A stretch of 52,456 nt of DNA, from the NCBI GenBank assembly GCA_027488935.1, contig JAIYAP010000060.1:1-52456 (forward strand), written 5' to 3'. The notes below the pieces were generated by a model. The model made no database searches and was not told where the DNA came from. It saw nothing but the letters and a program-made list of their open reading frames with translations. Position 1 is the stretch's first letter. Every line of letters begins with the position of its first letter. Origin of the DNA: Saprospiraceae bacterium. Its GTDB lineage: Bacteria; Bacteroidota; Bacteroidia; Chitinophagales; Saprospiraceae. Shown here one piece after another: positions 40,657 through 50,712 of the stretch. A program made the position numbers and the translations under genes.

Positions 40657-42828
40657 TCAAAACCGCATCCCAACCGACACATTCACACTGCGACCATCGG
40701 AAGGCCAAATTCCAGGTCCAGGGTAAAACGTAGGCCGTTTGGTATAGTATTGTCTGTCCAACAAGTTGCTGATGTTAAACCGCACCGTCAAACGCGCAGA
40801 AGCCGTATAGGTGAAATTCAAATCGACAATACTGTAGGAAGGAACCAAACCAATCGAACCGGAAGCAGAAGGTTTGACGGTATTGAGTGGATCAGCAAAA
40901 TTTTCGCTGGTGTAATTGTACAGCAACGATCCGCTCAGTTTTTTATACCGAACATTCAAGCCGTTTCGGATGATCCAGTCGGGTACGCCTTCTAATTTTT
41001 TACCTGCCAAGGGCTTGTTTTCATTGCCGGATCGAATTTGGCCATTTACATACACCGCATTAAAATAGGCCGTAGAGTTAAAAAGGTTCAGGCGCAGGTG
41101 TTCCCCGATGTACCAGGTATATTCAGCAAACGCCTCGATGCCGCGGGTGCGGGAATCGCCTATATTGGTTCTCAAAATGGTTACCACGCCATTTTCTTCC
41201 ATCGCAATACTGCCCAAACGGTTGTTGTACCGCAGTTCAAATAAACCCAGGTCCCAACGCAAATTTCCAAAGGCTCCCCGATAACCCAGTTCGAAGTTGT
41301 ACCCAAAGGCATCTTTCAGGTTTTTATCGGTGTATTCGTACACAGAACCCGGAATAATGTCTTTAAAAATGACTGGACGGTAGGCCTGCGACCAGCCCGC
41401 ATAGATGCTTTGGGTAGCACCCAACTGATACGTGCTGTTGATACCCAGCAAAGGATAACGGTGGTTGATGGTTGTTTCTAGGCTATCCGAATTGTAATAG
41501 CTGATTTTGCCCGTAAGTTTGGATGCCCCGCTTTCTACGCGAATGCCGGGTGTTACAGACCAGTTTTGACGCAATTGAAACTTGTTTTCGGCAAAAAAGG
41601 CGATATTTTGTGTTTTAAGGTGCATATCGCGGCCCCAACCGGGCGTTACCAAACTTAAGTCATAGTCCGATCCGGTGGTGCCTTTGCCCTGTTGCCGACG
41701 GTTCAGGTCGTTGTTGATGTATTGCACCCCGGCCGATAAACTGGATTGCTGGTTCAGCAAGGGATATTGGTGCAGGAGCCTCAATTCGGTGGTTTTACTG
41801 TTGAAATTGTCGATATCCACCTGGCGATTGGCATATTGCAAGGTAACCGGGTCAATTTTATCGACGATGGTAACGGGTCTATCGAACATCACACTGTTGC
41901 GGGAGCCAAATACCCCCGAAATGGTCCATTTTAACTGGGTATGCGGACTAAGTTTCCAGTCTGCGGTAAAAGAGGGCACATAAATTTCGGGGCTGTAATA
42001 ATTTCGGGATCGAGAAGCCTGTCTTGGATTTTCCTTAAACATGCTGTCGTTGAGCATGCCGGCAATATGAATCTGGTAGTAGGAACGTCCGAGGGTAAGG
42101 TTCAGGTTCAGGTTAGGATTGACGGCATAATTGAGCACGACGCCCTGTGCATCAAATTTGGAGTCGTTGTTATCGCGGTAACCGCCAGAGTTGCGCCGAT
42201 TGTAATAAGCGTAATAGGAGAATTTGCCAACTTTTCCGCTGATGGCATTGTACGTACTCAAAACACCATACGAACCCACGGCATTTACCGTTTCTAATCC
42301 AAAGGTGCGGGTGCTGTCGGGTTTGCGCATGACGTAATTGAGCATGCCGCCAAATTGTGCGCCGTATTGCAAGGCACCCGTACCGCGCACCAGCTCAATG
42401 CGCTCGATGGCTTCCATGGGCAGGCTAAAATGGCTGGCCGGATAGCCATACATATCCGAATTGGTGATGACGCCATTGGCCCTGATATTAAATTCCCAGC
42501 CCCGGTGCGGATCGAGGCCCCGGGTAGAGATATTAATCTGGTTGCCAGATCCGTCCATGTCGTACACGAACACACCCGGTACTTTGGCAAAAATCTGGCG
42601 CGGTATCCGTTCGGTGAGGTTAGCATCCAGGCCTTGCACGTTAATGACCTCATTTTTTTTGCCCGACCATAAATAACCGTCTTTGACATCCGGCAGGCGT
42701 TCGATGTTGCTTTTTTGGGCGGCAATCATGACCTGTTTCAAGGTTTTTGACTGGGTCGTATCGGGAATGTTCTGCCCGAACAGTGAAAAGGTGCTTAAAA
42801 TAGCCGATATAACGAGGAGATTTTTCAT
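40657..42828 (-). CDS. TonB-dependent outer-membrane receptor, FecA-like
   Basis: A 723-residue outer-membrane receptor. A signal peptide (about 1-18, FSLFGQ) is followed by the plug domain at about 30-155 (IFAKVPGVFVYDMDGSGNQI, INISTRGLDPHRGW, IERIELVRGTGALQYG) and a 22-strand barrel to the terminal Phe (VGMRF), as outer-membrane barrels usually end. The plug resembles that of ferric-citrate and siderophore receptors (FecA type). It lacks the N-terminal carboxypeptidase-like domain of SusC proteins, and no SusD gene is nearby, so small-ligand uptake is more likely than glycan uptake. It lies 10 bases behind a MORN-type lipoprotein gene and is probably cotranscribed with it. A possible upstream control element is at 43381-43426. 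Confidence 0.93.
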   Translation of the reverse strand: MKNLLVISAILSTFSLFGQNIPDTTQSKTLKQVMIAAQKSNIERLPDVKDGYLWSGKKNEVINVQGLDANLTERIPRQIFAKVPGVFVYDMDGSGNQINISTRGLDPHRGWEFNIRANGVITNSDMYGYPASHFSLPMEAIERIELVRGTGALQYGAQFGGMLNYVMRKPDSTRTFGLETVNAVGSYGVLSTYNAISGKVGKFSYYAYYNRRNSGGYRDNNDSKFDAQGVVLNYAVNPNLNLNLTLGRSYYQIHIAGMLNDSMFKENPRQASRSRNYYSPEIYVPSFTADWKLSPHTQLKWTISGVFGSRNSVMFDRPVTIVDKIDPVTLQYANRQVDIDNFNSKTTELRLLHQYPLLNQQSSLSAGVQYINNDLNRRQQGKGTTGSDYDLSLVTPGWGRDMHLKTQNIAFFAENKFQLRQNWSVTPGIRVESGASKLTGKISYYNSDSLETTINHRYPLLGINSTYQLGATQSIYAGWSQAYRPVIFKDIIPGSVYEYTDKNLKDAFGYNFELGYRGAFGNLRWDLGLFELRYNNRLGSIAMEENGVVTILRTNIGDSRTRGIEAFAEYTWYIGEHLRLNLFNSTAYFNAVYVNGQIRSGNENKPLAGKKLEGVPDWIIRNGLNVRYKKLSGSLLYNYTSENFADPLNTVKPSASGSIGLVPSYSIVDLNFTYTASARLTVRFNISNLLDRQYYTKRPTFYPGPGIWPSDGRSVNVSVGMRF

Positions 42829-42838
42829 GTGTTGTCGA

Positions 42839-43321
42839 TTACAGTGCAGGTTTCAACGCTGCGGGTTTGATTTGCGTGGTAACGGTTTTCAAAGAATCCA
42901 GGGCATAGACGGCTTCAAAGGATAAACTGCCTTCCGGCGTCCATTTTTGCAACAAACCGTCTTTTTTACCATTTTTAAAGTTTACGATAAACTGCGGTTT
43001 ACCTGTTGGATAAAATAAGGTGTCACCTCCTTGCTGAAGTCCAGCCACGAACGTTTGGGTTTCTTTTAATTTACCATCGGGGTAAAACAGTCGGTTTGTT
43101 CCTTCTTCCAATCCATTTTTAAAATGACGTATGATTTTCGTTTTACCATCTTCATAATATTCCGTCATTTCCCCTTCAATTTTATCATTTACGGTAAAAT
43201 AACGCCGCAGAACAGCCTTGCTATTGGTGTAATACAACAGGCGTTCTTTGGGTTGGTCGGGCGCTTGACAAGCAAAAAAAGCCATCAAAATTCCGCTGAT
43301 GCACAAAAAAGAATACTTCAT
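42839..43321 (-). CDS. MORN-repeat (YwqK-like) lipoprotein
   Basis: A 160-residue protein with a lipoprotein signal (GILMAFFAC, Cys at about 18). Three to four MORN-like repeats follow at about 45-140: EGEMTEYYEDGKTKIIRHFK, EEGTNRLFYPDGKLKE, GGDTLFYPTGKPQF and KDGLLQKWTPEGSLSF. This is the pattern annotated as 'toxin-antitoxin system YwqK family antitoxin', but in Bacteroidota such lipoproteins are common without a toxin, and none is seen here. It is first in a two-gene operon with the TonB receptor (10-base gap), suggesting a surface accessory role for the receptor. Confidence 0.82.
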   Translation of the reverse strand: MKYSFLCISGILMAFFACQAPDQPKERLLYYTNSKAVLRRYFTVNDKIEGEMTEYYEDGKTKIIRHFKNGLEEGTNRLFYPDGKLKETQTFVAGLQQGGDTLFYPTGKPQFIVNFKNGKKDGLLQKWTPEGSLSFEAVYALDSLKTVTTQIKPAALKPAL

Positions 43322-43349
43322 GTGTTAAATTGATATTGGGTGTAAAGAA

Positions 43350-43379
43350 AAAGAGACCATCCGAATGGATGGCCTCTTT
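43350..43379 (-). terminator. Intrinsic terminator of the first haloperoxidase gene
   Basis: A hairpin with arms AAGAG-x-CCATCC (43351-43362) and GGATGG-x-CTCTT (43367-43378), a 4-base loop and one central mismatch. Read on the minus strand, the T-rich tract CTCTTTTTCTTT follows. Confidence 0.75.
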
Positions 43380-43380
43380 C

Positions 43381-43426
43381 GGCTTAAAATACGCTTAAAA
43401 GCCTATTAAAATGCACTTAAAATTAC
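43381..43426. promoter_or_regulatory. Operator-like element: four heptamers at exact 11-bp spacing (copy 1)
   Basis: CTTAAAA or ATTAAAA begins at 43383, 43394, 43405 and 43416, always 11 bp apart. The whole 46-bp element matches the element at 44882-44927 at 34 of 46 positions, counted by eye. It overlaps the stop codon of the haloperoxidase gene and lies about 60 bp upstream of the YwqK-like/TonB operon. Direct repeats of 7 bp with an 11-bp period are the known binding-site architecture of OmpR/PhoB-family regulators. Confidence 0.65.
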
Positions 43427-44817
43427 TTTTTCCATTTGATTTGGTTCACCTTACGGCCGCAGCGGTAGCCCAGGTTTACACCTTGTTCGCAGTCCATACG
43501 GAAGTGCACACCCAGTGGAACGCGTGACCATGCATTTTCAACCGCCATTTCGTAGAACGTATTGAAAGCACGTGGTTTGCCTTCAAAGTCGGTGCGGTTT
43601 GCATGGCAGTTGTCGGTCATCGGGAAGTGAATGCCAAATACATCGGTCAATACTTCTGCTGCTGCAGCACCCATGGTAGAGTGGCCAGATGGGTAAGCAG
43701 GGAAAGAAGGGGTGTTACCAGCCTGGTTGGTCAATGGATTGAACAACAAAGGCTCCCAGTTTGGATCAATTACACGTTGAATGTAAGATTCTGGACGTTC
43801 AACATTGTAGTAATATTTAGAGTGCCAGCAAGAAACGGCCGCATCATTCAAGGCCATCCCTACTTTCACATTGCAATACAAGGCTTTTTCGAGGTTCGAC
43901 TTATCCAGGACGTAAGCCTGATCTGCAATCGCCAACCAACGTGGGCCGGGGCTGAAGGTCAGGTTAATCAAGTCATCGCTCCAAAATTCAGCGATCCAAA
44001 CGCCTTCGTAGGTAGCATTTACGGTATTGGCGTACACTTCCATCCCTTGGTTAAAGAAGGCAGAATTGGTGTTTTCGCTGTAAGGAATTGGTGGAGGGCA
44101 CAGTTTGTCGGCTTCGTTGATTGCAAAAGTGCGCACTTTGCCCCAGTTGCCAAACATCGGCTTTCCAGGACCCGGATCCGTAGGAACCCAGTCACCAGGA
44201 CTATCATAGTGTGTATTCCAGTCGTAATCTTTAAATGGATCGAGGTAGGCATCATGGCCAACTACGTCTGTTTTGGAGTAGTTCCATACCGCTGTCGCGA
44301 CATCCTGACCGTACGTTTTAGAACGGTTAAGCACTTCTTCAGTTGCTTCTGATGCATACAATGCATTGTTTTGGCTTTCCAAAGCACCAATTTTTGCATA
44401 CAAATCGGGATTTACAGAGGCAAAAAAACGACGCAGCAAATACGCAGTGGTCGTATTTACTACAGTTGGCCAGTGGTATTCAGCGCCAGTTTGTACCTTC
44501 GGGATATCAAGGCCCGGATAGCTGGCTGCTACCGAATTATAACCGGGCATTCCAGTGATACAAGCTTCGTAGGCAGCAAGGCCTGTGTAGGCCAAAGAAC
44601 GCGGCGCAGGACCGGGGCGGTAACCAGCAGCATAGCGCTCAATTTCCAGGTAAAGTTGGTTCCAAGACGAAACAACGGAGTGGTCGTATGACGCAACGCT
44701 TTTGTCGGTCGGTTCAACCGTGTTGTTATTGTCGTCTTTGGTGTTACAAGACCAGGTAACCATCCCCATCAACAGCAGGGCGAAGGCTAAAAGGGAGTAG
44801 TTTTTTACAATACGCAT
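43423..44817 (-). CDS. Vanadium-dependent haloperoxidase / PAP2-type lipoprotein (first copy)
   Basis: A 464-residue protein with a lipoprotein-type signal (LLLMGMVTWSC, Cys at about 24). It has the three-part vanadate/phosphate pocket of the haloperoxidase-PAP2 superfamily: K.{6}RP in SKYYYNVERP at about 333, PSGH in AYPSGHSTMG at about 376, and SRxxxGxHxxxD in SRVPLGVHFRMD at about 430. All key residues (Lys, Arg, His, Arg, His) are present. Members oxidise halides with peroxide or, in the phosphatase branch, remove phosphate; the sequence alone does not decide. It shares layout and motifs with the gene at 47083 and lies divergent to a two-component system, separated by an operator-like element. 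Confidence 0.9.
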   Translation of the reverse strand: MRIVKNYSLLAFALLLMGMVTWSCNTKDDNNNTVEPTDKSVASYDHSVVSSWNQLYLEIERYAAGYRPGPAPRSLAYTGLAAYEACITGMPGYNSVAASYPGLDIPKVQTGAEYHWPTVVNTTTAYLLRRFFASVNPDLYAKIGALESQNNALYASEATEEVLNRSKTYGQDVATAVWNYSKTDVVGHDAYLDPFKDYDWNTHYDSPGDWVPTDPGPGKPMFGNWGKVRTFAINEADKLCPPPIPYSENTNSAFFNQGMEVYANTVNATYEGVWIAEFWSDDLINLTFSPGPRWLAIADQAYVLDKSNLEKALYCNVKVGMALNDAAVSCWHSKYYYNVERPESYIQRVIDPNWEPLLFNPLTNQAGNTPSFPAYPSGHSTMGAAAAEVLTDVFGIHFPMTDNCHANRTDFEGKPRAFNTFYEMAVENAWSRVPLGVHFRMDCEQGVNLGYRCGRKVNQIKWKK

Positions 44818-44881
44818 GATACAATTGAGTTAGTGAAACATTCATGAGAAACAGCAAAGGACGGGCCATTTTGCCAAAAAT

Positions 44882-44927
44882 GGATTAGGAAGCGTTTAAA
44901 TTCAGATTAAAAAGCGCTTAAAATTAC
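44882..44927. promoter_or_regulatory. Operator-like element: four heptamers at exact 11-bp spacing (copy 2)
   Basis: ATTAGGA, TTTAAAT, ATTAAAA and CTTAAAA begin at 44884, 44895, 44906 and 44917. The element lies in the divergent region between the haloperoxidase gene (start about 64 bp away) and the response-regulator gene, and ends 21 bp before the latter's -7 element. It is 34/46 identical to the copy at 43381. A regulator bound here could control both directions, including its own gene. Confidence 0.65.
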
Positions 44928-44948: not shown

Positions 44949-44956
44949 TAGTTTTG
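44949..44956 (+). promoter_or_regulatory. -7 promoter element of the response-regulator operon
   Basis: TAGTTTTG matches TAnnTTTG exactly and lies 18 bases before the ATG at 44975. The TTG of this box (44954) could be mistaken for a start codon. Confidence 0.6.
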
Positions 44957-44974
44957 CATCAATTATTGAAAACA

Positions 44975-45655
44975 ATGAAGGTATTGCTGATTGAAGATGA
45001 GCCTAAAATGGTACAAACCCTGAAAAAAGGGCTGGAAGAGCACCAAATAGAGGTCGATTTTGCCTATGATGGCACTACCGGTGGATTGTTGTGCGCGCGC
45101 AATGATTATGCTGTAATCGTTTCCGATGTTATTTTGCCAGGCATTACCGGGGTAGACCTTGTTAGACAAATTCGGAACAAAGGTAATCATACTCCGGTAC
45201 TTTTACTTACCGCATTAGGACTTACAGACGACAAAGTTGCTGGTTTTGAAGCTGGAGCGGACGATTATTTGACAAAACCTTTCGAATTCAGGGAATTACT
45301 TATGCGGATTAAAGCGCTTGCCCGCCGCCCAAATACCCAATATCAACCCCAGCAAAATCTGAAATTTGCCGATATTGAAATGGATATGGCTACAAAAACG
45401 TGTTTTAGAAGTGGCCAAAAGATTTCCCTTACCCCCAAAGAATTTGCCTTGATGGAATATTTATTGCGTAATCCGGGCCGCGTAATTTCCAAATCTGAGA
45501 TATCCGAACAAGTTTGGAACCTCGATTTTGATACTGGCACCAACATTGTGGAAGTATATGTAAACTTCCTGCGCAAAAAAATTGAAAAGGGATTTGAGGT
45601 CAAACTCATTCATACCCAATTCAAAAACGGTTACATCTTAAAAGTGGAAGCATAA
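44975..45655 (+). CDS. OmpR/PhoB-family response regulator
   Basis: A 226-residue regulator. The receiver domain, 1-120, has the acidic pair ED at 7-8 (LLIEDEPKMV), the phosphoacceptor Asp51 (VIVSDVILPG), Thr79 (LLLTA) and Lys101 (DYLTKPF). The winged-helix DNA-binding domain, about 130-226, has LTPKEFALMEYLLRNPGRVI and ends YGYILKV-like (NGYILKVEA). The ATG at 44975 is chosen over an upstream TTG that lies in the promoter. The cognate kinase starts 7 bases downstream. Regulators of this class bind tandem heptamers with an 11-bp period, just what occurs in the promoter region of this gene and near 43381, so it is the best candidate for binding both. Confidence 0.95.
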   Translation: MKVLLIEDEPKMVQTLKKGLEEHQIEVDFAYDGTTGGLLCARNDYAVIVSDVILPGITGVDLVRQIRNKGNHTPVLLLTALGLTDDKVAGFEAGADDYLTKPFEFRELLMRIKALARRPNTQYQPQQNLKFADIEMDMATKTCFRSGQKISLTPKEFALMEYLLRNPGRVISKSEISEQVWNLDFDTGTNIVEVYVNFLRKKIEKGFEVKLIHTQFKNGYILKVEA

Positions 45656-45662
45656 AGCGGTC

Positions 45663-47033
45663 ATGCAAATACGGACTAAACTTACCCTCCAATTCATCCT
45701 GCTGGTAGCCGGCATTTTGTTTTTTTCACACTATTTTATCTATTATAAATTCCGTGAAATCAACGAAAACGAGTTTTACAATAGCCTGCATTCGAAGTCG
45801 CTGATGACTGCCGAAATGGTGCTGCACGACGAAAATACCCTAAAACCCCTCCAACCAAATGAAAAACCATCGGGCGTAACGCTGCCGTTTCGCGAAAATA
45901 TCATCATCTACAACGATCGCCTCGAAAAAGTATTTGCCTTTAACCACGATGCAAATCCGCTTTCCGCTGCCTCTTTACGCAATATCAAAGCGGGGAATGA
46001 GTACCGTTTTGAACAAGGAAAATCAAACATAATCGGCTTCCGCCATATCAGCAAAAGCGGAAAGGAATACGTCATCCTAGCCGAATCGGTATTTAGCTCG
46101 GAGGACATTGGCCACCTGCGCAATATCCTCATGGTCACTTTTTTCATAGCCATTGGTATTGTTGCTTGCGGCGGCTGGTTTTATGCCGCACAAGCCTTGT
46201 CGCCCGTTTCGCGGATTGTCGACCAGGTAGATCGCATCCTGCCTACCGATTTAAGTGCCCGCCTAAAACTGAAAAATCAAAAAGATGAGCTTTCCCGATT
46301 GGTAAAAACCTTCAACCGACTGCTCGACCGGATTCAGTTTGCCTTTAAAATGCAAAAAAGTTTCATTTCCAATGTTTCCCATGAACTAAAAAACCCGCTT
46401 TCTATTATCATATCGCAACTCGAAGTATCGCTGGATAAAGCCGAACGCAGCAAAGAAGAGTACCGCAGTACCCTCCATTCGGTGCTCGATGACATGCGCG
46501 ATTTGAGCGGAATCACCGAAAAATTGCTGCAATTGGCCCGGGTTTACTCAGAAGACACCAATATTCCCTTTGAAGAAGTGCGCCTGGATGAATTGATGCT
46601 GCAAACCCGGGAATCGCTGTTGCGCATGCACCCCGAATACCATATCGTGTTTGATGTAGAAGGCGTGCCCGAAACGGAAGCGGAACTATGCATTAAAGGC
46701 AATGAATCCCTCCTGCGTTCGGCATTTTTGAACCTGCTGGATAATGGCTGCAAATTCTCTCCAGATAAACGCGTGTCGGTAAAAATCTTTTTCAATGCAG
46801 CGGGCAATCACCGGGTTGAAATTACCGACCAAGGACCGGGTATTCCTGCGAAAGACCTGCAACTCATTTTTCAACCTTTTTACCGCAGTTCTGAAAACAT
46901 CCATGTACGCGGTTCTGGCATTGGCCTTTCGCTGGTAGAAAGTATCATGAAAATTCACCGAATCATCTTGGATGTCGATTCGGCCCAAGGGAAAGGCACC
47001 ACTTTCCGACTCAATTTTCCGGCAGCAGCCTAA
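45663..47033 (+). CDS. Membrane sensor histidine kinase, partner of the upstream regulator
   Basis: A 456-residue inner-membrane kinase. Spans at about 9-27 and 153-176 enclose a periplasmic sensor of about 125 residues without a recognised fold (it contains ENIIIYNDRLEKVFAFN, so a PAS-like fold is possible). A HAMP linker at about 177-230 follows. The dimerisation helix has His240 in SFISNVSHELKNPLS. The ATPase domain at about 345-453 has LLNLLDNGCKFSP, TDQGPGIP and RGSGIGLSLV. The architecture is like heavy-metal and envelope-stress sensors (CusS/BaeS type), but the signal is not known. It lies 7 bases after the regulator, and a haloperoxidase-like gene follows 49 bases later. Confidence 0.94.
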   Translation: MQIRTKLTLQFILLVAGILFFSHYFIYYKFREINENEFYNSLHSKSLMTAEMVLHDENTLKPLQPNEKPSGVTLPFRENIIIYNDRLEKVFAFNHDANPLSAASLRNIKAGNEYRFEQGKSNIIGFRHISKSGKEYVILAESVFSSEDIGHLRNILMVTFFIAIGIVACGGWFYAAQALSPVSRIVDQVDRILPTDLSARLKLKNQKDELSRLVKTFNRLLDRIQFAFKMQKSFISNVSHELKNPLSIIISQLEVSLDKAERSKEEYRSTLHSVLDDMRDLSGITEKLLQLARVYSEDTNIPFEEVRLDELMLQTRESLLRMHPEYHIVFDVEGVPETEAELCIKGNESLLRSAFLNLLDNGCKFSPDKRVSVKIFFNAAGNHRVEITDQGPGIPAKDLQLIFQPFYRSSENIHVRGSGIGLSLVESIMKIHRIILDVDSAQGKGTTFRLNFPAAA

Positions 47034-47082: not shown

Positions 47083-48447
47083 ATGCCCTACATGAACAGG
47101 AAGCTTCTTTTTAAAGCGGGGGCCTGGCTGCTTTTGTGCTTGCTGTGCTGCCAGTGTAAGTCGACTGGCTGGAATAAACCAGCCACTCCAGAAGATCAGG
47201 CGCGGGCAATCTGCCTGGGTTGGAACAATCTTTTGCTCGAACTGGAACGCAATACCCCCGGCTATCGCCCCCCTGTGAGCGCGCGTATGTTTGCCTATGT
47301 GGCTTTGAGTGCGTATGAAACTGCGTTGCCCGCTTTGCCGGGTTATCGTTCCCTGGAAACAGACTTACCGGGGTTTCAAAAAACAGCGCTTTCTACAGAA
47401 AATCAAACCCTGAACTTGCCCGCCAGCCTGAATGCCTGTTACGCCCATATTGTTGCTCGATTCTTTTTTAATGCCGAAAAAACCGTCCTGGCCCAAATTG
47501 ATCGTTTAGAGAAATTATATAAAAACGAATTCCGATTAAATGAAAATGAATATTTTACATATTCAGAAAAATATGGAAAAGCAGTGGCTGAACAAGTTTG
47601 GCAATATTCCATGACCGATTCCATTGGGCACAACGGATACCTGTACAACTATGATCGTCAATACCAGTCGCCCCAATGCAAAGGCTGCTGGCAATCTGCC
47701 GAACCAGATCGCATTTATGCCTTGCTACCCAATTGGGGTAAGGTGCGCACCTTTATTGTTCCCCTCCAGGCCGTTCCAAGCCAGCCACCCATGCCATTTA
47801 GTGAAAAACCCGGCTCCCCGTTTTACACGGAAGCCATGGAGGTGTACAGCGTTTCCCAAACACTTTCCAAGGAAAATAAATGGATTGCCGAATTTTGGAG
47901 TGATGACCTGGAAGGTTTCACGCTCACACCCGCAGGACGCTGGATTTCTATTGTAAATCAGGTGATTGAAAAAACAAACCCCGATTTTAAAACCACCCTT
48001 CAAGTGTACCTTAAAACAAGCCTGGCCCTGGGCGATGTGGCCATTCATTGCTGGGCGAGCAAATACCAGTACAACCTGGAACGGCCACAAACCTATATAC
48101 AACGCATTATTGACCCCAATTGGCTGCCCCTACATGGTACCCCCGCTTTTCCGGCTTATCCTTCCGGACATGCTTGTTTTGGTGCCGCTGTAGCCACTGT
48201 TTTAGCCCATTTCTTTGGCGACCAGTACACGCTGGAAGATCGTACCCATCAGGATCGCGATGAATTTGTGAGTACGCCCCGCAGTTTCCGCAGCTTTTCA
48301 GAAATGTCCCGCGAAAATGCCTTGTCGCGTATCGTAGGTGGCGTGCATTACCGCATGGATTGTGAGGAAGGGCTGCGGATCGGACAGATCATTGGACAAA
48401 AAATTGCCGTACTCCCTTTGCAAAGCTCAAAAGTAAGTTTGAAATAA
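47083..48447 (+). CDS. Vanadium-dependent haloperoxidase / PAP2-type protein (second copy)
   Basis: A 454-residue paralogue of the lipoprotein at 43423-44817. It has an N-terminal signal with a cysteine-rich end (LLLCLLCCQC) that may be a lipoprotein signal. Pocket motifs: K327 and R334-P335 in SKYQYNLERP, P360-S-G-H363 in YPSGHACFG, and SRIVGGVHYRMD near 425. All the known pocket residues are kept. The shared blocks around WIAEFWSDDL and YIQRIIDPNW place it closest to the first copy rather than to other PAP2 proteins. It follows the kinase gene on the same strand with 49 bases between and no terminator, so it is likely in the regulator operon. An ATG three codons downstream (47092) is an alternative start. 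Confidence 0.9.
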   Translation: MPYMNRKLLFKAGAWLLLCLLCCQCKSTGWNKPATPEDQARAICLGWNNLLLELERNTPGYRPPVSARMFAYVALSAYETALPALPGYRSLETDLPGFQKTALSTENQTLNLPASLNACYAHIVARFFFNAEKTVLAQIDRLEKLYKNEFRLNENEYFTYSEKYGKAVAEQVWQYSMTDSIGHNGYLYNYDRQYQSPQCKGCWQSAEPDRIYALLPNWGKVRTFIVPLQAVPSQPPMPFSEKPGSPFYTEAMEVYSVSQTLSKENKWIAEFWSDDLEGFTLTPAGRWISIVNQVIEKTNPDFKTTLQVYLKTSLALGDVAIHCWASKYQYNLERPQTYIQRIIDPNWLPLHGTPAFPAYPSGHACFGAAVATVLAHFFGDQYTLEDRTHQDRDEFVSTPRSFRSFSEMSRENALSRIVGGVHYRMDCEEGLRIGQIIGQKIAVLPLQSSKVSLK

Positions 48448-48487: not shown

Positions 48488-49660
48488 ATGCGCCTTTTTA
48501 GATTGATGCTGCTTTTGATTCCGCATGCCATTTTTGCGCAGGCGGAACTCGAAAAACAACTGCAAACCCAGTTAATTCTGGCAGAAGACGGGGATACACT
48601 CACCCTTCCTGCCGATACCATTTACCTCCGGGGCACCTTATCGCTCGACGGGAAAAACCACATTACCTTGCGCGGCGCGGGTCAGGACAAAACCATATTG
48701 TCGTTTATAAACCAGGAACAAGGCGCTGAAGGACTGAAGGTTACGAATGGGCATCACATTATATTAGAAGATTTTACGATCGAAAATAGCAAAGGTGATT
48801 TAATTAAAACACAAAACATTTCCCAGCTCTGGTTTAAGAATATTACTGCACGTTGGACGGGCGGCCCAAAAAGCAGCAATGGTGCCTATGCGCTTTATCC
48901 CGTGCAATGCAGCAATGTGCATTTTGATGGCTGTACTGCCATTGGGGCTTCGGATGCGGGTATCTATGTGGGCCAGTCGGATTCCGTGTGGGTAACGAAT
49001 TGTGTTGCAAAGCAAAATGTGGCTGGAATTGAAATTGAAAACACCACCAATGCCTGGGTATGGAACAACAAGGCGTTTGATAATACCGGCGGTATCCTGG
49101 TTTTTGACCTGCCCGATTTGCCTAAAAAACGCGGAGGCCACGTAAAAGTGTTTAAAAACCTGGTTACCCGCAACAACCTTCAAAATTTCGCACCCAAAGG
49201 CAATATTGTAGGGGAAGTTCCGGCGGGGACTGGCGTTATGGTGCTGGCAACCAACGATGTAGAAATTTATGAAAATAAAATATGGGATAATAAAACGGTC
49301 TCTACAGCGATTGTCAGTTATTTTATCACCGAACGCCCAATCCGGGACAGTCTGTATAATCCTTACCCGTCCAAAATTTATATCCACGACAATATCTATT
49401 CGATGGGCAAGCGCATGCCGACCTGGAAAAACAAACTTGGATTTTTATTTTGGCTAAAATTTGGTCGCCGCGTACCCCATATTCTGTTCGATGGCATATC
49501 CAAACCCGAATTTTTACAACCCGACGGCCGACTGAAACCAGCGTATCAAATCTGTGTAAACCGAAATGAAAATGGTTCTTTTGCCAATTTGAAGGCCGAT
49601 AAAAAGTTTCATGGAATCAGCCGCGATGTGCGTTTGTTTGATTGTGTTTATCAAAACTAA
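48488..49660 (+). CDS. Exported parallel beta-helix protein (TIGR03805-like)
   Basis: A 390-residue protein with a signal peptide (about 1-18, ending AIFAQ). The body at about 30-330 is a right-handed parallel beta-helix of short rungs such as NHITLRGAGQDKTILSF, HHIILEDFTIENSKGDLI, LWFKNITARWTGG, VHFDGCTAIGASDAGIYVG and VWVTNCVAKQNVAGIEIENT. This is the NosD/pectate-lyase-like style, with no clear catalytic site. The C-terminal 60 residues are a separate small region. It is followed 5 bases later by a diheme cytochrome-like gene. From memory, these two families (TIGR03805 and TIGR03806) recur as a gene pair of unknown function; this should be verified. Confidence 0.85.
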   Translation: MRLFRLMLLLIPHAIFAQAELEKQLQTQLILAEDGDTLTLPADTIYLRGTLSLDGKNHITLRGAGQDKTILSFINQEQGAEGLKVTNGHHIILEDFTIENSKGDLIKTQNISQLWFKNITARWTGGPKSSNGAYALYPVQCSNVHFDGCTAIGASDAGIYVGQSDSVWVTNCVAKQNVAGIEIENTTNAWVWNNKAFDNTGGILVFDLPDLPKKRGGHVKVFKNLVTRNNLQNFAPKGNIVGEVPAGTGVMVLATNDVEIYENKIWDNKTVSTAIVSYFITERPIRDSLYNPYPSKIYIHDNIYSMGKRMPTWKNKLGFLFWLKFGRRVPHILFDGISKPEFLQPDGRLKPAYQICVNRNENGSFANLKADKKFHGISRDVRLFDCVYQN

Positions 49661-49665
49661 TACCG

Positions 49666-50712
49666 ATGCGACTTAACCTCAAACTTGGAGTATGTATTGT
49701 TGGTTTGCTGGGTATTTTCAGCAGTTTTGTAGGGAGCCCGGACCTTGCACCCCGGCAATATTTATCGGAATACGGCTTTTTTGATGGTCCGTTGGCCAAT
49801 TTAACACCGGTACAAACGGTTTTTCCTTACGAGGTAAATGCCCCGCTTTTTTCCGATTATGCCGAAAAGGCGCGTTTTATTTATTTGCCGCCCGGTACCA
49901 AACTCAGTTATCAGGCTGTAAATGCCTTTGATTTTCCGACAGGCGCCGTGATCATTAAAAACTTTTTTTACCACCACGATAACCAGCATCCCGAACTTGG
50001 GCGCCAGATCATCGAAACACGTTTGCTGATTAAAACAGCCAATACCTGGAAAGCACTCGATTATATCTGGAATGCCGACCAAACAGAGGCTACCCTTGAA
50101 GTGGCCGGTGCGCAACTGCCCGTGCAATGGACGGATATACACGGGAAAAATCAATCCATTCAATACCAGATTCCAAACCTGAATCAGTGTAAAGGTTGCC
50201 ATTCTTTGGATGGACAGTTTACACCCATTGGGGTAACTGCAAGACAACTTAACCGAGCCATTTCATCTGAAAATCAATTACTTACCTGGGAAAAGCAGGG
50301 GTTGTTGGAGTTGCCCATCGGGTTTGATATCGAGGCTGCGCCGCGTCTGGCAGATTACCGCAATGCGCCGCTCCCGCAACATGAAAGCATCGAACGCATG
50401 GCCCGCGCTTATCTGGATGCCAATTGCGCGCATTGCCACAATCCACAAGGGCCAGCAAGCACCAGCGGCTTGTTTTTAGAGGCCGATCAACAAAACCCGG
50501 AGCGCCTGGGCGTGCTCAAATCGCCCGTAGCGGCAGGGCGGGGGAGTGGCAAAAACCGATATGGCATTGTGCCTGGTAAACCCCAGGAGAGTATTCTTGT
50601 TTATCGCATGGAAAGCAACGACCCTGGAATCAGGATGCCCGAATTGGGCCGACAAATAGAACACCAGGAGGGCATTGCTTTAGTGAAGGCATGGATCAAA
50701 ACAATGCAGTAG
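49666..50712 (+). CDS. Exported diheme c-type cytochrome-like protein (TIGR03806/SO2930-like)
   Basis: A 348-residue protein with an N-terminal signal peptide (about 1-22). The start at 49666 is chosen because the upstream codons overlap the previous gene. Two c-heme motifs are present: CKGCH at about 180 and CAHCH at about 259. Between and around them are EYGFFDGPLANLTPVQTV near the N-terminus, FPYEVNAPLFSDYAEKARF, and a C-terminal VPGKPQESILVYRMES and MPELGR. This arrangement fits the SO2930-type diheme family, whose function is unknown; electron transfer is inferred from the hemes. It pairs with the beta-helix gene 5 bases upstream, and folP starts 7 bases after it. Confidence 0.88.
   Translation: MRLNLKLGVCIVGLLGIFSSFVGSPDLAPRQYLSEYGFFDGPLANLTPVQTVFPYEVNAPLFSDYAEKARFIYLPPGTKLSYQAVNAFDFPTGAVIIKNFFYHHDNQHPELGRQIIETRLLIKTANTWKALDYIWNADQTEATLEVAGAQLPVQWTDIHGKNQSIQYQIPNLNQCKGCHSLDGQFTPIGVTARQLNRAISSENQLLTWEKQGLLELPIGFDIEAAPRLADYRNAPLPQHESIERMARAYLDANCAHCHNPQGPASTSGLFLEADQQNPERLGVLKSPVAAGRGSGKNRYGIVPGKPQESILVYRMESNDPGIRMPELGRQIEHQEGIALVKAWIKTMQ

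Follow-up and report, generated by a model that had tools for sequence, protein, structure and literature searches.

The 52,456-nucleotide stretch of Saprospiraceae DNA analysed here (the window) contains two genes for haloperoxidase-like proteins next to a two-component system, raising the question of whether, and through which sites, that system controls them. To our knowledge, little is known about the role of bacterial haloperoxidases or about their switches. A sequence-only reading of the window had proposed two short arrays of heptamers at an 11-bp period as candidate operators of the local regulator.

The first haloperoxidase-like gene (43423..44817, minus strand) encodes a PAP2 protein that resembles a vanadium-dependent haloperoxidase (VHPO) of solved structure, PDB entry 4cit (E 8e-42). 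Its translation was found by eye to contain K-x6-RP, PSGH and SR-x5-H-x3-D, motif forms which we take to be marks of VHPOs. PAP2 phosphatases carry the same motifs. From the likeness to 4cit together with the motifs, we assign the product as a putative VHPO. Domain profiles identified the remaining genes. On the plus strand lie those for an OmpR/PhoB-type response regulator (44975..45655, ATG at 44975; searches used 44984-45655), a histidine kinase with HAMP, HisKA and HATPase_c domains (45663..47033, nearest to cztS_silS_copS) and the second haloperoxidase-like protein (47083..48447), after which, at 48488-50712, come paired genes for a parallel beta-helix protein (TIGR03805) and a dihaem cytochrome of SO2930 type (TIGR03806). 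In the related locus L063, this pair follows the kinase directly, with no second haloperoxidase between. On the minus strand, a MORN-repeat protein gene (42839..43321), the presumed target of element 1, is followed downstream by a TonB-dependent receptor gene (40657..42828).

Element 1 (43383..43422, minus strand, located by pattern count) reads TTTTAAG N4 TTTTAAT N4 TTTTAAG N4 TTTTAAG on the target strand. Its plus-strand heptamers, CTTAAAA, CTTAAAA, ATTAAAA and CTTAAAA at 43383, 43394, 43405 and 43416, form a nearly perfect array. Element 2 (44884..44923, minus strand, located in the same way) reads TTTTAAG N4 TTTTAAT N4 ATTTAAA N4 TCCTAAT with a degenerate last box; on the plus strand its heptamers are ATTAGGA, TTTAAAT, ATTAAAA and CTTAAAA at 44884, 44895, 44906 and 44917, of which two are good, one has a changed last letter and the first is degenerate. 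The exact 11-bp steps described by the sequence-only reading were thus confirmed, and so was its placement of both elements about 60 bp upstream of minus-strand starts: element 1 starts 62 bp above the MORN ATG (43321), and element 2 starts 67 bp above the ATG (44817) of the first haloperoxidase gene. The 21 bp it gave between element 2 (position 44927) and the -7 box of the regulator gene also held, but its count of 34 of 46 matching positions between the elements fell to 32 of 46 on recounting.

A search of the window for arrays of four TTAAAA boxes, allowing a total of up to 4 mismatches and trying periods 8-15, gave matches at period 11 alone and nowhere but at the two elements. Across the genome (6.28 Mb, 88 contigs), TTAAA N6 TTAAA N6 TTAAA gave 3 overlapping matches, all within elements 1 and 2, compared with 0 in the reversed control. 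The possibility that the periodic motif is frequent in the genome without a link to such genes was answered in two ways: the exact three-box motif is unique to the elements, whereas plain two-box matches stayed at genome background, with 8+6 vs 5+8 in the control (14 vs 13) in this genome and 257 vs 249 in the genomes of 13 relatives. Allowing the three-box pattern 2 mismatches gave 82+89 matches vs 125+117 in the reversed control, and two boxes plus CAAA at a variable gap gave 5+10 vs 5+3, sites being inseparable from background. The loose motif thus shows no genome-wide enrichment. Compared by coordinate, the 14 two-box matches of this genome outside the window include none near the four VHPO genes that also lie outside it. 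Two such matches lie before a secreted protein gene (L147) and near an efflux-like gene (L149); another (L154), 6 bp from the presumed start of an RND pump gene on contig C81, was attributed to chance.

The sequence-only reading had suggested orthologous loci as a check. Loci were listed at a regulator identity of at least 46% with at least 150 bp upstream, and 19 of 109 distinct loci (57-99% identity, >4 kb) were used; copies of the window were left out and the genome's own paralogue (L155) was kept, and the regulators of these 19 loci are 57-77% identical to that of the window. Twelve of the 19 carry a two-box site at period 11 within 300 bp upstream of the regulator gene, while periods 8, 9, 10, 12, 13, 14 and 15 gave 0, 0, 1, 1, 0, 0 and 2 loci, and 500 dinucleotide shuffles gave a mean of 0.096 and a maximum of 3. 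No strict upstream site was found in the other seven (L066, L109, L071, L072, L159, L158 and L076), although only 223 bp upstream was available in L158. Over the whole loci (195 kb), there were 22 matches at period 11 vs 0-4 at other periods (30 shuffles: mean 1.2, maximum 4), and 20 of the 22 are oriented alike; the two others (L104, L076) look unrelated. Eight loci (L062-L065, L067-L069 and L157) keep the divergent haloperoxidase, site, regulator and kinase together. The second site moves with its target genes where gene order differs: it stands before the MORN gene in L063, between MORN and TonB before the receptor in L062, L067 and L068, and before a further VHPO gene in L064 and L157, its boxes (TTTTAAG or TTCTAA(G/T)) reading towards the gene.

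Most arrays are also in phase with a TTTG of a possible promoter. TAnnTTTG is given as the -7 consensus of Bacteroidota sigma-A in the available text of PMC9723704. The geometry set comprised 20 arrays on the + strand, read on the target strand as TTTTAAG N4 repeats; the minus-strand matches of L104 and L076 were left out, and two arrays are copies of the window arrays from L061, a locus nearly identical to the window (one match, one miss). In 17 of the 20, TTTG (nonamer nnnnTTTGn) follows the proximal strict box at 21-22, 31-33 or 43 nt, with 12 cases in the 31-33 class. This phase was noticed by eye before being tested, and the test requires only TTTG; many of the -7 nonamers lack the leading TA of the consensus. 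Block shuffles (2000) gave means of 3.2 for all ladder distances and 0.7 for 31-33, with maxima of 9 and 5. The three misses are the window-type MORN promoter of L061, L156 and L070. Such laddered spacing suggests an activator that would sit on one helix face, as phasing with the -7 box is what an activator touching the polymerase would need.

In the window, a candidate -7 box of the first haloperoxidase gene (GTCCTTTGC, 44854..44862, minus strand) lies 32 nt from the third box of element 2. On the regulator side, the candidate -7 box TAGTTTTG (44949..44956, plus strand) is 25 nt from the array, and the corresponding distances are 21 and 24 nt in L062 and L063; because this spacing varies, it argues only weakly for autoregulation. 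Pedobacter loci, with regulators 46-49% identical, have the same boxes 10 nt before TA(C/T)TTTTGT (TACTTTTGT or TATTTTTGT) on the regulator side in 7 of 8 cases, which extends the ladder to 10/21/32/43.

For element 1, the proximal box is 32 nt from TTTCTTTAC (43342..43350, minus strand), an imperfect -7 box that would serve the MORN/TonB operon. Element 1 itself follows the haloperoxidase stop codon and precedes a strong 14-bp hairpin with a T-rich tail (43349..43380, minus strand), which was found by folding (-21.9 kcal/mol, z -6.8) 3' of the haloperoxidase gene and between the element and its -7 box. Predicted to be a probable intrinsic terminator, this hairpin is absent from the terminator-scan output. 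This setting and the imperfect -7 box would fit a reading in which the haloperoxidase transcript includes element 1 at its 3' end, perhaps as an accessory to a terminator, and element 2 is the sole operator. We regard this as very unlikely, as the second site of L062, L067 and L068 lies between MORN and TonB, not behind a haloperoxidase gene, and L063 has TTTCTTTGT at 33 nt at the same position as the window's MORN promoter.

Sites were also found at some other VHPO genes. The set, chosen by protein similarity, comprised 66 of 71 matches in 13 relatives (five weak or short fragments were left out) and 6 genes of the own genome. Of the 66, which are partly orthologous and so are not independent counts, 22 have a site within 400 bp (14 pointing towards the gene, 8 away) and 44 have none in that range. 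The genome-wide rate (257 matches in about 71.5 Mb) predicts about 0.1 for 66 genes, an expectation drawn from that rate and not from A+T-rich intergenic DNA. On the contig of the regulator, 9 of 22 genes have a site, all towards the gene, and on other contigs 13 of 44 do, 5 towards and 8 away; 'other' here denotes any contig without the window-type regulator, and some of the genes counted in this way could have a regulator paralogue as their neighbour, as in L288. Six more other-contig genes have a forward site 423-1480 bp upstream. Other periods gave 0-2 per orientation over all 72 genes. Within the own genome, the VHPO gene on C80 and the two on C70 have no site. At a haloperoxidase class of about 34% identity, L272, L273 and L274 share a conserved site about 258 bp upstream that points away from the haloperoxidase gene and faces a large lipoprotein, with ThuA, GSDH and PKD domains in L274.

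Further candidates came from the rest of the matches. A gene on contig C36 of the own genome (a secreted protein orthologue) is preceded by two strict boxes, from which GAGGTTTGC is 32 nt away, and its relatives in L216 and L219, encoding a secreted outer-membrane-like protein, have a site before the gene too. These two loci belong to 17 stretches picked by eye among the matches listed, from the genomes of L067, L068 and L104 (G154, G155 and G157) and some from G150 and G156. Within the same selection, sites precede a haloperoxidase gene located on a different contig (L214, L215, L222) or an operon of two genes that includes one for a VHPO-like protein (L217, L218), surround regulator-kinase paralogues (L212, L213, L224, L225), mark the window-type locus of G150 (L221), or fall within genes or beside genes without an evident link (L220, L223, L226-L228). 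In L212 and L213 the twin-site layout is similar, and the second site is followed by a gene for a very large protein, which in L212 has 1283 aa and a type IX secretion tail. Among the matches listed, G154 and G155 also show several scattered copies of an operator-like 11-bp tandem unit, CTTAAATGACCCTTAAAT (e.g. L226:2345).

Dependence on the regulator was compared in two sets of VHPO loci, 30 from 30 of 33 matching genomes (40 hand-picked) and 30 from 25 hand-picked genomes, with only matches having a fetched locus used; these genes, too, are partly orthologous and do not count as independent. Where genomes have only distant regulators, the search gave a single forward match, lacking TTTG at the ladder distances, and a single backward match, with 0-1 at other periods. 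Where a 43-64% identical regulator is present, only three forward matches occurred, each of them 31-33 nt from a TTTG, besides one backward match, with 0-1 forward and 0-2 backward at other periods. As these numbers are small and the VHPO genes of the distant-regulator set are more distant, the comparison only leans towards a link to the regulator. It bears on the least probable of the readings weighed here, in which no regulator is involved and the arrays are simply curved DNA or A+T-rich promoter sequence. The boxes are A/T-only except for the C, the loose pattern occurs no more often than chance across the genome, and a sigma-70-like scan scores the arrays 9 of 12, but with no more matches than in shuffles. 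Composition of this kind contrasts with a single period, mostly a single orientation, a fixed TTTG phase and recurrence at related loci and other VHPO genes, as well as with the near-absence of sites where regulators are distant.

If the arrays are operators, their cognate protein might still be a relative of the window regulator. In the same genome, contig C81 carries a 62% identical paralogue (L155:7312-7989), which has no adjacent kinase and is possibly an orphan regulator. Opposite it are genes for a secreted protein of 303 aa and a PAP2/VHPO-like protein of 518 aa, and the paralogue's divergent promoter has the variant site CTTAGAA N4 CTTAGAG before the VHPO-like operon. The same box class stands alongside regulator paralogues 46-50% identical in G154 and G155. 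Because the motif is thus common to paralogous regulators, the arrays could be operators of another subfamily member, such as the C81 paralogue, or of several paralogues at once. We consider this unlikely though worth keeping in view: the window arrays adjoin the window regulator, their grouping with haloperoxidase, regulator and kinase is kept in the eight loci above, and the box letters differ slightly, TTAAAA at the window and TTAGAA at the C81 paralogue. It is rather likely, in our judgement from the sequence comparisons, that the elements are operators for the regulator at 44975-45655 or a close paralogue of it, which would activate from one helix face. The C36 and C81 genes outside the window probably belong to the regulon as well.

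The regulator itself has PF00072 (receiver) and PF00486 (winged-helix Trans_reg_C) domains above the cut-offs, which places it in the OmpR/PhoB family. Regulators of this family usually bind direct repeats spaced about 11 bp; the PhoB box, whose heptamer differs from TTTTAAG, repeats directly every 11 bp ahead of the promoter and keeps phase with its core element. The window arrays, too, have same-orientation half-sites about 11 bp apart upstream of a candidate promoter. In enterobacteria, the available text of PMC3973317 gives the PmrA/BasR box, bound by an OmpR/PhoB-family regulator, as head-to-tail CTTAAG N5 xTTAAT. The window elements share its TTAA-type half-sites, head-to-tail order and 11-bp period, but have up to four half-sites instead of two, the box TTTTAAG/CTTAAAA and a regulator that is not PmrA: that assignment (NF007928, 145.1 bits vs a cut-off of 330) was rejected, as was PhoB (155 bits vs 296). 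The arrays would therefore be PmrA-box-like direct-repeat operators of the OmpR/PhoB class, making this a putative circuit of a known kind. In open-access literature, the titles and the opening parts of abstracts yielded no two-component control of haloperoxidases, and titles yielded no earlier description of a TTTTAAG-type box, although one may exist.

By NCBIfam models, the regulator and kinase are nearest to cztR/silR/copR and cztS/silS/copS, both under the curated cut-offs (regulator vs TIGR01387, CzcR/SilR/CopR, without its first three residues: 221.8 bits, cut-off 279.2), and the nearest PDB entry to the regulator's DNA-binding domain is PcoR. The pair is thus like CusR/CzcR/SilR/CopR systems, but unlike them in these scores, in its direct-repeat operator and in its haloperoxidase targets. 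Cus/Cop boxes are inverted repeats. Because of this nearness to the Cus/Czc/Sil type, we infer that the signal is perhaps metal or redox stress. Regulator homologues lie beside an efflux operon in the Pedobacter loci L083 and L088 (families checked in L083). In L083 (7135-7163, Pedobacter suwonensis), boxes of the same type stand before this operon, which encodes outer-membrane efflux, HlyD and RND pump proteins, a hint at a metal-related role, whereas L088, with the same operon layout, has a strict site before the regulator only, not before the efflux operon.

In the mechanism that we propose, the phosphorylated regulator would bind the head-to-tail TTTTAAG heptamers with one subunit at each 11-bp step. 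All subunits would then lie on one helix face in phase with the -7 box and would aid the start of RNA polymerase, activating rather than repressing. Element 2 would drive the first haloperoxidase gene and may also affect the divergent operon of regulator, kinase and second haloperoxidase; element 1 would drive the MORN protein and TonB receptor from behind the hairpin. The regulon claimed by the sequence-only reading is in this way largely supported for the first haloperoxidase, MORN and TonB genes and more weakly for the regulator's own promoter, while the second haloperoxidase gene, with no site within 1.5 kb upstream, could respond only through the regulator operon. What the present analysis adds to that reading is the phase rule, the movement of sites with their targets and the wider haloperoxidase link.

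Tentatively, and with somewhat less than even confidence, we propose a dedicated two-component VHPO regulon in Saprospiraceae-like Bacteroidota. A Cus/Czc-type pair, perhaps tied ancestrally to metal efflux as in Pedobacter, may have had its laddered TTTTAAG operators recruited to scattered haloperoxidase and outer-membrane protein genes, which would link halogenation with a metal or redox signal. With a precise operator and its helical-phase rule, the regulon would become readable from genomes across the clade, and the inducing signal would become easier to approach.
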